A stretch of 64,000 bases of DNA from an uncultured Aeromonadales bacterium (GTDB lineage: Bacteria > Pseudomonadota > Gammaproteobacteria > Enterobacterales > Succinivibrionaceae). Every line of letters starts with the position of its first letter. The first letter of the stretch is position 1. The translations under genes were made by a program, and so were the position numbers. The stretch spans positions 1 through 64,000 of the forward strand of contig CACZLZ010000002.1 in assembly GCA_902782145.1 (NCBI GenBank), given 5' to 3'. The notes under the pieces were generated by a model. It saw only the letters and a program-made list of their open reading frames with translations. It was not told the DNA's origin and made no database searches. Below, piece after piece: positions 36,492 to 42,972 of the stretch.

Positions 36492-37235
36492 ATGAGCACA
36501 AAAAATCTGCTGCTGTCAAAACGGATGGCTGAGCGGTTCCGGGGATTCTATCCGGTGGTGGTTGATCTGGAGACGGCGGGGTTCAACAGCCAGGAGAACG
36601 CCCTCCTGGAAGTGGGTGCCTGCCTCCTCCGCCTGGACGAAGACGGGATCCTGCACCCCGGTGAGGTGCTGGACTACCATATCCGGCCCTTCGAGGGAGC
36701 GGTGATCAATGAGAAGTCCTGCCGGTTCATCAATGTGGATCCCTATGATCCCGCCCGGCAGGCCGAAGCGGAGGCCCCGGCCCTCAGGGACTTCTTCAAA
36801 AGGGTGACCTCGGAGATGAAGCTCGCCCACTGCCGCCGGGCAGTAATGGTGGCCCACAACGCCGCCTTTGATCAGGGCTTCCTGAATGCTGCTGTGGAGC
36901 GGAACCATCTCAGGAACCGCTGTCCCTTCCATCCCTTCTCCACCTTTGACACCTCCGCCCTGTCCGGGATCTTCCTGGGTCACACGGTGCTGGCCAACGC
37001 CTGCGCCCTGGCGGGGATCGAATATGACAATGCCCAGGCCCACGGGGCCCGGTATGACGCCGAAGTCACCGCCAAGCTCTTCTGCGCCATTGCCAACGGC
37101 TACCGCAGCCTGCTTCTGGGGGAGGACTCCTTCCCGCCGATCCCCCTGCCCGCCTCCGAGGCTCCCGGTGAGGAGCAGGACGCCGGCAGTCCGGCGGAGG
37201 ACTCCGCTGACAGCCAGGACAGCACCGCCCGGTAA
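36492..37235 (+). CDS. rnt: Ribonuclease T
   Basis: 3'-5' exoribonuclease of the DEDDh group that trims tRNA and other stable RNA ends. ATG 36492 follows GGTGAG. The motif GFYPVVVDLETAGFN carries the first DxE pair, MVAHNAAFDQGFL the second Asp, and QAHGARYDAEVTAKLF the His and last Asp. HPFSTFDTSALSG is also typical. 247 residues versus 215 in E. coli: the excess is an acidic, disordered-looking tail after residue 215 (EAPGEEQDAGSPAEDS). Confidence 0.95.
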   Translation: MSTKNLLLSKRMAERFRGFYPVVVDLETAGFNSQENALLEVGACLLRLDEDGILHPGEVLDYHIRPFEGAVINEKSCRFINVDPYDPARQAEAEAPALRDFFKRVTSEMKLAHCRRAVMVAHNAAFDQGFLNAAVERNHLRNRCPFHPFSTFDTSALSGIFLGHTVLANACALAGIEYDNAQAHGARYDAEVTAKLFCAIANGYRSLLLGEDSFPPIPLPASEAPGEEQDAGSPAEDSADSQDSTAR

Positions 37236-37410
37236 CCACCCTCAGGCGCTGCCCGGATCTGGCCTTCATCCGGATCCTGCCGCCCCGCGGCAAGTCCACC
37301 CAAACCCGCCGAAAGCCGCCGGACAGCATCTGGGCGCCCCTTCTGTTTCCCACGGGGATTTTCCGGGCACCCGGCGCTCCCCGGTCCCGGAATCATTTCA
37401 GGAACAGAAC

Positions 37411-38292
37411 ATGATCTCCTTCAGAACCCCCGGTCTCCTCCTGGCCGCCGCCCTTCTCTGTGCCCTCACCCCCGCAGCTGTGGCTGGGGATAGCAGCAGC
37501 CCGGAAAGTCCCCGGACAGTGCTGCTGGATCCCGGTCACGACTACAAGTCCACGGGGGCCTACTCCAGCAGCAACGTCCCGGAATACCGGTTCAACCTGA
37601 GGATCGCTGATGAACTGAAAGCCAAGCTAGAAAGCCGGGGCTACCGGGTTATGGTCACCCACGGCGCAGACGAACTGAGTTCCCTGGCAGATCGGACCAG
37701 GTTTACCAACTATGATATCTTTGTGTCCCTGCACCACGATTCCATTGATGAGGAATACTGCCTCCACGGCATAAAGCCCTGCACCACCTACAGCGCCTAC
37801 GGCTATTCCCTGTGGGTTTCACCGGAAAACCCCCAGTACAGCAAGTCCTACCGTCTGGCCGATCTCATCGGCACCCGGCTGACCGAGGATCATTTCATCC
37901 ACAGCGTACACCATGTGATGGTCACCCGCCGGGAGGTGCTGGACCGGGCAAAGGGCATTTTCTCCTTTCCCCACTGTTATGTGCTGCGCCACAACAAGAA
38001 GCCCGCCATTCTCATCGAAGTGGCGGTGATCACCAATCCCCTGGACGAGCAGAATGCTGAGAGTGCCGATTTCAGGAGCAGGTTTCTGGAAAATGTGGCC
38101 GGGGGAATAGACGACTACTTCCAGGACACTTCAGGGGCCGTCCCGCCCCCTCCGCAGCCGGAGTCGGCAAACAACAGAACCGGAGCACGGTCCGGAAAGA
38201 TCCAGGCCCGCAGCCGGGGCACCGCCTCCGGGAGGACGGCAGCTAGGGGGAAAAAGGGAAGCCGGCAGCACCGGAACGGAAAACGCGGCTGA
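37411..38292 (+). CDS. N-acetylmuramoyl-L-alanine amidase (Amidase_3)
   Basis: Cleaves the amide bond between muramic acid and the stem peptide in the periplasm, usually for daughter-cell separation. 293 residues from ATG 37411 with AGGA upstream; the longer open frame to 36886 is a shadow of rnt. A signal peptide spans about residues 1-24 (LLLAAALLCALTPAAVAG). Zinc and catalytic residues are present: VLLDPGHDYKSTG, Glu in VPEYRFNL, His in VSLHHDSID, and Glu in AILIEVAVITNP. The C-terminus is a basic Arg/Lys/Gly-rich tail (about 250-293) without a LysM or SPOR domain. Confidence 0.9.
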   Translation: MISFRTPGLLLAAALLCALTPAAVAGDSSSPESPRTVLLDPGHDYKSTGAYSSSNVPEYRFNLRIADELKAKLESRGYRVMVTHGADELSSLADRTRFTNYDIFVSLHHDSIDEEYCLHGIKPCTTYSAYGYSLWVSPENPQYSKSYRLADLIGTRLTEDHFIHSVHHVMVTRREVLDRAKGIFSFPHCYVLRHNKKPAILIEVAVITNPLDEQNAESADFRSRFLENVAGGIDDYFQDTSGAVPPPPQPESANNRTGARSGKIQARSRGTASGRTAARGKKGSRQHRNGKRG

Positions 38293-38460
38293 TCCCATGA
38301 GTCCGGAGAGGGGCCAGGCCAGCCAGAGACCAGCCAGTGCAGACGCCAGGAGCTTACCCTGGAACAGCAAGATCAACGGCACACAGATCCTCACAGGAAC
38401 CGGCACTCTCCCCGGAGCGGGGGATGGTGACAGAAGGCCTTGGCAGATGACGCCGTCGAA

Positions 38461-38590
38461 GAAATTGTGCCATCAGTGAGGCCACAATCTCACCACCGCC
38501 CGTCCCCAAAAGATTGTGCCATCAGTGAGACCACAATCTCCGCCGCCCTCCCTTCCCCAAAGGATTGTGCCATCAGTGAGACCACAATCC
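38461..38590. repeat. Three 29-bp hairpin repeats, period 50-51 bp
   Basis: Three direct repeats share TTGTGCCATCAGTGAG, an A or G, and CCACAATC. Each folds: copy 1 (38461-38490) ATTGTG/CACAAT, copy 2 (38511-38539) AGATTGTG/CACAATCT, copy 3 (38562-38590) GGATTGTG/CACAATCC. The A-T pair of copy 2 is a G-C pair in copy 3 on both arms, a compensatory change. Spacers are only 21-22 bases and resemble each other (both end CCCCAAA), so this is not a CRISPR array. It lies about 240 bases upstream of sodB. Confidence 0.85.
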
Positions 38591-38681
38591 CGCGGCCTCA
38601 GGATCTCCCGGCTTTCCCGGATCAGCAAAGCACGGATCGCAAAATTGCAGACTGCTCCCGGTTTGTATCCGCCCAGGGACT

Positions 38682-38687
38682 TATAAT
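38682..38687 (+). promoter_or_regulatory. Candidate -10 element for sodB
   Basis: TATAAT, 145 bases upstream of sodB, downstream of the hairpin repeats. The -35 region is weak (TTTGTA with a short spacer). No Fur box was recognised. Confidence 0.35.
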
Positions 38688-38831
38688 GACAGTGTTTTCC
38701 GCCGGGCTGTGCCGGGAAGTTCCTGGGACTCCGCCCCTTAAGCAGAGGCGCCCCGGCGGCAACATTCCTCCCTTTGGGAAAATCCGTCCCGGCTGTGAAG
38801 CCGCAGCCGCCAACAGCAACAGGAGTTAATC

Positions 38832-39443
38832 ATGTTTGAACTGCCGCCCCTCCCCTATGAGAAAACCGCTCTGGCTCCCTTCCTTTCAGAAGAGACCCTG
38901 ACCTTTCACCATGACAAGCATTTCAACGCCTATGTCACCACCCTGAACAGCCTCATCAAAGACACTCCCTACGCAGAACTGTCTCTGGAGGAGATCATCC
39001 GCAAGGCTGCCGCCGAAGACAACAAGCCGATCTTCAACAATGCCGGCCAGGTGTTCAACCACGATTTCTACTTCAAATGTCTGGGACCAGCACACAAGGA
39101 AGGTGAGGGAGACGCATGCCCCCTGGACGGCTGTGCACTGAAAAAAATGGTGGGTGAGACCTTCGGCGGGCGGGAGAAATTCTGGGAAAGCCTGGTGAAG
39201 GCCGCCACTGGCAATTTCGGCTCCGGCTGGACATGGCTGGTGCAGGAAAACGGCAAACTGGAGATCCTGAACTACTCCAATGCTGACAGTCCGGTGAGGG
39301 ACCGCCCCTCCGCCACGCCCCTGCTGTGCATTGACGTCTGGGAGCATGCCTACTACATTGACTACCGCAATGACCGGAAGAAGTATGTGGAGCAGATGCT
39401 GCAGCACGTCAACTGGGTGCAGGTAGCCTCCAGGGTGTCCTGA
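38832..39443 (+). CDS. sodB: Iron superoxide dismutase
   Basis: Converts superoxide to oxygen and hydrogen peroxide in the cytosol. 203 residues with an AGGAGTTAATC leader just before the ATG. Metal ligands are visible: His in FHHDKHFNAYV, His in QVFNHDFYF, and Asp and His in DVWEHAYYIDYRN. AGQVFN and the FGSGWTWLV block favour the iron form. A short Cys-containing insertion (GEGDACPLDGCAL) at about residues 91-103 is unusual for SodB. The M20 gene follows after three bases. Confidence 0.95.
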   Translation: MFELPPLPYEKTALAPFLSEETLTFHHDKHFNAYVTTLNSLIKDTPYAELSLEEIIRKAAAEDNKPIFNNAGQVFNHDFYFKCLGPAHKEGEGDACPLDGCALKKMVGETFGGREKFWESLVKAATGNFGSGWTWLVQENGKLEILNYSNADSPVRDRPSATPLLCIDVWEHAYYIDYRNDRKKYVEQMLQHVNWVQVASRVS

Positions 39444-41939: not shown

Positions 41940-42972
41940 AACCAAGAACGTTATGATGACAGAGATGTTATTGATCCGACAAATTTACTTGATTCATATG
42001 ATCGAATGTTTGACTTTGGTCAGAAGCACTTAAACGATCTGTTTGTTCTTGATGGAATCCAAAGTGTAAGTGCAAGAGATGCTATCCTTCGCGAGATTAT
42101 AACCAACAGTTTGGCTCACAGAGATTTAGTAGTGGCTTTGTCGCCAAAATGATAATTGAGAAAGAGAGGATACTCATTGAAAATGGCAACAAGGCTCACG
42201 GAATCGGAATTCTAGACATCAAAAATTTCACACCCTTCGCAAAAAATCCTCCTATTTCCGAGAAATTGGCCTTGCTGATGAACTTGGTAGCGGCATGCGT
42301 AATAGTTTGAAGTACTCAATTCTATACAGCGGCAAAGCACCAGAATTTACAGAAGGAGACATTTTCAGAATCGTAATTCCTCTGACTACAGGCGCACTGA
42401 CTAAAGTTGGTCCATTAACAGCATCATCATGTGTAAATCAAAATGATTAAAAAAATATCAGATCTCCTGATGCGGTAGGTGATATCAATACTGAGGCAGG
42501 TGGTGAAGTCAGCACCGGAGCAGGTGGTGAAATCAGCACGGGAGCAGGTGGTGAAATCAGCACGGGAGCAGGTGGTGAAGTCAGTGCCGGAGCAGGTGGT
42601 GAAGTCAGCGCCGGAGCAGGTGGTGAAGTCAGCGCCGGAGCAGGTGGTGAAGTCAGCGCCGGAGCAGGTGGTGAAGTCAGCGCAGGACCAGGTGGTGAAG
42701 TCAGTGCAGGACCAGGTGGTGAAGTCAGTGCCGGAGCAGGTGGTGAAGTCAGCAACATTTCAAATGTGAAACTTAATCCGGATCGACTGAGAGCACTGCT
42801 GCAGCACTGCCTTGAAGCAAGAACCCGGGCTGAAATGCGGGAATTCTGCGGGATAAGATCACAGGACTATTTCCGGCGGAACATACTGCTCCCTCTTCTG
42901 GAAAGCGGACTGCTGAAACGCACGGTACCTGACAAGCCCATCAGCCGGATTCAAAAATACATCAGAGCATAA
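41940..42972 (+). pseudogene. Decayed RecG-like ATP-binding regulator (AlbA_2/HATPase_c_4 type)
   Basis: C-terminal half of a protein of the AlbA_2 plus HATPase_c_4 type. Fragments in shifting frames read DAILREIITNSLAHRD, SSGFVAKMIIEKERILIENGNKAHG, NFTPFAKNPP, LADELGSGMRNSLKYS and EGDIFRIVIPL, all in the order usual for the family. TAA interrupts the frame near 42450. The same frame then runs through a 24-bp tandem repeat into a winged-helix tail (42766-42972) ending LKRTVPDKPISRIQKY. The N-terminal DNA-binding domain is missing. At least two frame changes and one stop make it non-functional as one polypeptide. The last 68 codons could be expressed from a GTG at 42766. Confidence 0.8.
42496..42753 (+). 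repeat. 24-bp tandem repeat, ten full copies plus a partial
   Basis: Units of GCAGGTGGTGAAGTCAGC followed by a variable RCCGGA start at 42496, 42520, 42544, 42568, 42592, 42616, 42640, 42664, 42688 and 42712, with a partial unit at 42736. In the frame of the flanking domains each unit encodes AGGEVSAG-like octapeptides; another open frame encodes QVVKSAPE octapeptides. All frames are open. The unit length is a multiple of three and the variants are mostly silent or conservative. Confidence 0.95.

Follow-up and report, generated by a model that had tools for sequence, protein, structure and literature searches.

The region studied here lies on contig C2 of the 3.18-Mb genome of an uncultured Aeromonadales bacterium, a member of the Succinivibrionaceae, of which a stretch of 64,000 nt, hereafter the window, was analysed. 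On the forward strand, an N-acetylmuramoyl-L-alanine amidase ORF (Amidase_3; 36886-38292), the true start of which is probably further in, is followed by sodB (38832-39443), encoding an Fe/Mn superoxide dismutase with the Pfam domains Sod_Fe_N and Sod_Fe_C, and the intergenic region between the two genes carries an array of three repeats. A TATAAT hexamer on the same strand (38682-38687), located 93 nt downstream of the third repeat, is the likely -10 element of sodB, and ATATAAT is present at the corresponding place in two congeners; the sodB TATAAT was not supported by the promoter scan. The window also contains an unrelated tandem repeat at 42496-42753 (24 bp, 10.8 copies, 94% matches).

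The three hairpin repeats upstream of sodB that a preliminary description had noticed are real. Unit 1, AATTGTGCCATCAGTGAGGCCACAATC, occupies 38463-38489 within a 29-nt dyad at 38462-38490; unit 2, GATTGTGCCATCAGTGAGACCACAATC, occupies 38512-38538 (dyad at 38511-38539); and unit 3, with the same core as unit 2, occupies 38563-38589 (dyad at 38562-38590), none of them being assigned to a strand. The core common to the 27-nt units is GATTGTG-CCATCAGTGAGAC-CACAATC. The units follow each other at 49 and then 51 nt, not at the 50-51 bp period given earlier, and TRF returned a period of 51 with 2.7 copies and a score of 198. Spacer 1 (38490-38511, 22 nt) and spacer 2 (38539-38562, 24 nt), likewise without strand, are identical at 17/22 positions with a 2-nt gap. 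Since the two spacers are related to each other, they are not CRISPR spacers, and a CRISPR array is ruled out, in agreement with the first description.

Each unit forms an odd-centred dyad of about 29 bp with 11/14 complementary pairs, the threshold for such dyads being at least 11/14, with the mismatches at pairs 4-6 and the symmetry running through the centre (TCA-G-TGA), a feature absent from the preliminary description. The loop CCATCAGTGAG, described before as invariant, is indeed identical in all three units. The pair just outside the core is G-C in copy 3 and A-T in copy 2, whereas in copy 1 the next pair is broken, reading A.C on the + strand and G.U on the - strand. The A-T/G-C swap between copies 2 and 3, previously interpreted as compensatory change, was therefore observed, but it cannot bear the weight placed on it, because covariation within the window amounts to a single covarying pair alongside a broken pair in copy 1. 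A better sign of constraint than the covariation of the end pair is the conservation of the core above the spacers (Fisher p = 0.003 and 0.047), the cores being identical at 27/27 positions between copies 2 and 3 and at 25/27 between copies 1 and 2. Lone dyads with at least 11/14 pairs are not rare, occurring well over 100 times in 475 kb of the same genome; three near-identical dyads within 130 bp, unlike single ones, are rare.

The exact unit occurs in three copies at this single locus. It was absent from the rest of the genome, from the 56 other family genomes of the comparison set (whose members include Ruminobacter amylophilus, Succinimonas amylolytica and a Succinivibrionaceae MAG), from GTDB r220 and from IMG/VR, and the complete intergenic region had no blastn match among plasmids and phages. 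The preliminary description had proposed a genome-wide search as a check and had taken confinement of the unit to this site as evidence against its reading; the exact unit is confined here and absent in close relatives, while the class of site to which it appears to belong is not confined. The congeners G051 and G050 conserve the amidase-sodB order with shorter intergenic regions, and the array was not found before their sodB. Because two congeners keep this gene order without the array, its location before sodB is probably incidental, and any effect of the array on sodB would be secondary and is putative.

Looser searches were of mixed value. A dyad pattern with 3 mismatches was drowned in chance matches within coding DNA, and relaxed blastn gave weak matches (E 0.003-0.06) that were first taken for chance. 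Three of these loci (L057, L063 and L064) are chance matches, and those in loci L058-L062 led to real relatives of the array.

A covariance model built from the three window units (R1) matched palindromes of Ruminobacter and Succinimonas with E ~1e-5 per genome in the 57 genomes, as well as a palindrome inside a DUF1016 gene of R. amylophilus (E 6e-4). The palindromes found share the length and centre of the window units, and a T-A pair of the stem is replaced by A-T: GATAGTGGCTTCAGTGAGGCCACTATC. A DUF1016/YhcG nuclease ORF of R. amylophilus contains two such palindromes, GATTGTGATCTCAGTGAATTCACAATC and, at a distance of 48 nt, a variant; upstream in this gene there is an in-frame TAG. Two-palindrome arrays with a spacing of 49 nt are also present outside any gene seen in R. 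amylophilus and in G052, a genome of the same genus as ours, and these match the palindromes of DUF1016 genes at up to 31/32 nt. In addition, a conserved element of about 300 bp with 1-2 palindromes was found in Ruminobacter, Succinimonas and a congener (L058-L062, L143 and L151). The possibility that the Ruminobacter elements are an IS or MITE was rejected, since the conserved flanks of about 300 bp exist but the palindromes also recur without them. The element once adjoins an IS256-like transposase gene. At an R. amylophilus locus (L142:940-4967), AlbA_2-like, DUF1016 and tyrosine integrase genes stand in a row, which suggests a mobile or invertible neighbourhood.

The palindromes of DUF1016/YhcG genes were analysed in 58 nonredundant DUF1016_N genes of Pseudomonadota and in an independent set of 57 from IMG/VR. 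The best in-domain palindrome had at least 12/14 pairs in 36/58 genes of the first set (codon-shuffle mean best 9.4) and in 37/57 of the second (codon-shuffle mean 9.5), so that synonymous-codon shuffling fails to reproduce these coding palindromes of about 29 bp. The two arms covary, with 398 complementary pairs observed against 238 expected and a maximum of 261 after arm shuffling; as the sequences used in that comparison were preselected as palindromes, the codon shuffle is the unbiased test. The coding palindrome usually sits 12 nt upstream of the LSW/LPW codons and is gene-specific in sequence, for example CAATTGTCCAACAGGCTGTTGGACAATTG, CAATTCGAGAGACACTGTCTCTCGAATTG and AGATAGTTGCGACAGTGTCGCAACTATCT. 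It is symmetric up to the centre base, and its mismatches on the sense strand are G.T in 30 cases and A.C in 37, that is, without a G.U excess. In three loci (L220, L258 and L294), a palindrome was seen at a second in-domain place, about 108-111 nt upstream, after a YG motif.

Some palindromes of DUF1016_N genes immediately precede the start codon or lie past the stop, and extragenic palindromes with at least 12/14 pairs have a density of 0.21 per kb at distances of up to 300 bp from DUF1016 genes compared with 0.06 per kb farther away. In E. coli K-12 (NC_000913.3), yhcG itself contains three coding palindromes 39 nt apart (L230:6129-6235), and a fourth lies 14 nt past the stop (L230:6969-6997). 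Alleles of E. coli have 1, 2 or 3 coding copies, with the post-stop copy conserved; some strains have a truncated yhcG. A viral scan with E. coli YhcG as the lone query returned nothing, whereas an alignment query did match. The DUF1016/YhcG papers found in the open-access literature are silent on palindromes within the gene, and the arrangement of a palindrome within the gene of its own presumed binder seems to be undescribed so far.

The window units share with the DUF1016 palindromes their length, the central CAGTG, the ATTGTG/CACAAT ends, the register and the clustering at about 50 nt. A strict register pattern, ATTGTGNNNNCASTGNNNNCAC, gave 20 rows in the 57 genomes and 0 for the reversed control; most rows came from the window array, a five-unit array on contig C11 of the same genome, the DUF1016 gene of R. 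amylophilus and a Succinimonas DUF1016 leader in which the palindrome ends about 18 nt upstream of the ATG. A model built from 41 DUF1016 gene palindromes without the window sequence (R2) placed the three window units ahead of every other site in the 64 kb, unit 1 scoring best with E 0.023, which becomes a non-significant 1.1 when taken genome-wide. The best identities of the three units to DUF1016 palindromes were 24, 22 and 22 of 29 (20-21 when R. amylophilus was left out), the highest being that of unit 2 to the coding palindrome of R. amylophilus (24/29), whereas 446 background palindromes reached a maximum of 21/29 with a next best of 19. Most in-gene DUF1016 palindromes are more perfect than the window units, the R. 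amylophilus one being likewise imperfect, at pairs 4-5. In similarity and register, the window units exceed the background palindromes, and it is quite likely that they belong to the DUF1016-associated class.

Three intact DUF1016 genes are present in the genome, on contigs C54, C83 and C11, and the window palindrome is in none of them. The C54 palindrome has five copies in the genome, all on C54: one in the gene, one directly before the start codon and three at a 66-bp period, the latter forming an array that follows an hsdS-like gene and runs into a DUF1016 fragment. This contig (L186) carries two hsdS-like genes together with the intact DUF1016 gene and the fragment behind the three palindromes. 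On C11 (27863-28080; L311), the five-unit array, AGATTGTG[A/T]CAGCA[G/C]TGCTG[A/T]CAC at 45-48-bp spacing, occupies the intergenic region that separates a UvrD-like from a zinc-ribbon/HNH gene. Its units share the exact register of the window units and resemble the palindrome that precedes the ATG of the Succinimonas DUF1016 gene.

Near the window array itself, no DUF1016 gene was detected, contig C2 having no PF17761 match, and none of the tblastn matches listed indicated a DUF1016 remnant at 38293-38831. The array thus lies neither inside nor beside a DUF1016 gene, and we call it an orphan of the class because no cognate gene adjoins it. Reading the array as translated sequence was rejected: the + frames yield E/KIVPSVRPQS, which is similar to DUF1016 peptides, yet there is no coding sign, and units 1 and 2, spaced 49 nt, are out of frame with each other.

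Concerning the protein, DUF1016/YhcG corresponds to PADLOC PDC-S02, a candidate phage-defence family, and a PD-(D/E)XK nuclease is predicted for its C-terminal domain; this prediction has been reported, without a fold match for the N-terminal domain (PMC1189080). In the current study, the DUF1016 protein of the same genome matched Pfam HTH_ParB with 24.2 bits (cut-off 22.6). An AlphaFold2 model of the N-terminal domain (pLDDT 91.5) had only ParB/Noc/Spo0J proteins among its top 19 Foldseek matches in the PDB (probability 0.85-1.0; E 0.04-0.4, all above 0.001), including Noc and Spo0J bound to their own DNA sites, and a sequence search of the PDB found no DUF1016 relative. By the alignment, the coding palindrome would therefore encode the stretch directly after the putative recognition helix.

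Taken together, these data point to the window array as a cluster of three parS-like sites of the class accompanying DUF1016/YhcG genes, with putative binding by such a protein, a reading to which we assign a probability of roughly 0.55. Dimers of a DUF1016-type protein may bind each palindrome in the fashion of ParB on parS, and a cluster of sites would favour cooperative loading. Loading at the protein's own gene could result in autoregulation, and loading elsewhere in marking or in partition-like and defence functions. The orphan array of the window may be a remnant of a lost DUF1016 locus or may have been copied out of one, and was possibly enlarged by tandem duplication. More generally, and only tentatively, DUF1016/YhcG proteins might be ParB-like nucleases with their own putative recognition palindrome in the coding sequence, site and protein co-evolving gene by gene and the clusters serving as centromere-like loading arrays in a self-addressed, possibly antiphage system widespread in bacteria and phages. 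For DUF1016, a candidate defence family (PDC-S02) of unknown function, this provides a concrete and cheap hypothesis of a ParB-like nuclease with self-encoded sites, since E. coli K-12 yhcG itself offers three coding palindromes and one after the gene. The window array adds that such sites also occur in orphan clusters remote from the gene, which are natural targets for questions of binding, spreading and influence on adjacent genes. What looked like an ordinary repeat is probably a member of a so far undescribed class of site.

The preliminary description had left open a repeated RNA structure, a REP-like element and a protein-binding array, and the evidence favours the last. That the units are repeated RNA hairpins, serving as an sRNA, a 3' UTR structure or an mRNA stabiliser, is very unlikely. 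The single units do fold, with energies of -7.8 to -12.6 kcal/mol when both strands are considered, the whole array has a fold z of -3.3, and the - strand keeps all stem pairs when G.U is allowed; however, the window has no Rfam match, no promoter or terminator frames the array, and the related palindromes are symmetric up to the centre base, like a DNA site, and lack a G.U excess (30 vs 37), for which reasons the RNA reading is disfavoured. Being DNA palindromes of a type that recurs inside and beside DUF1016/YhcG genes, the repeats would most likely serve as protein-binding sites and not as an RNA structure. A REP-like origin, in which a selfish element would use the palindromes as its recognition hairpins, with DUF1016 in the role of RAYT, and the array would be a BIME-like cluster that was copied in, agrees with the layout, namely palindromes inside and beside a nuclease gene, clustering, variable copy number and the recurring element of about 300 bp. 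Its distribution does not fit, as genome-wide dispersal is lacking: REPs usually number more than 100 copies per genome (PMC2817692), compared with three copies at one locus for the exact unit and five on one contig for the C54 palindrome. Moreover, the linked enzyme is not RAYT, no tyrosine transposase is linked, and the coding palindrome mostly has a constant position within the gene, where it evolves instead of being inserted. We regard this origin as unlikely.

Two local explanations are also improbable. The dyads, 93-220 bp upstream of the sodB TATAAT and with a core conserved above the spacers, could be local operators through which an unrelated transcription factor controls sodB or the end of the amidase gene, their likeness to DUF1016 palindromes being due to chance or convergence; against this stand the congeners with the same gene order and no array at sodB, the similarity and register, and the companion arrays in the same genome. 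Even less is to be expected of a neutral minisatellite that contains a dyad by chance: an intergenic, tandem and species-specific repeat with related spacers would suit it, but not the conservation of the core over the spacers, nor the match of the units to palindromes that are kept elsewhere by paired changes.

The cluster of parS-like sites that we prefer has parallels in known systems. The F plasmid centromere, sopC, consists of tandem 43-bp repeats, and in Bacillus subtilis a parS site lies inside spo0J. As in ParB-parS and Noc-NBS, DUF1016_N has a ParB-type HTH; as in these and F sopC, its sites are dyads, with clusters at about 40-66 bp, and as in ParB-parS they lie beside, and often within, the gene of the presumed binder. 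In contrast to ParB, DUF1016 carries a nuclease domain, and no ParA partner was noticed; its sites of about 29 bp vary by gene and are bound only putatively, parS being a short, conserved sequence. It is the palindromes of the PADLOC PDC-S02 family that the window units resemble, although the window locus lacks such a gene. REP/RAYT systems and BIMEs are similar in having short palindromes adjoining the gene of a DNA-processing enzyme, clusters and paired changes that preserve the palindrome (PMC2817692), and differ in that DUF1016 palindromes have few copies per genome, lie in coding DNA and accompany a PD-(D/E)XK enzyme rather than a tyrosine transposase. Rickettsia palindromic elements, which are about 100-150 nt long and inserted in intergenic regions, RNAs and coding sequences (PMC4316617), likewise show that in-frame palindromes are tolerated in protein genes, whereas the DUF1016 palindromes are mostly restricted to one position within a single gene family and vary in sequence by gene.
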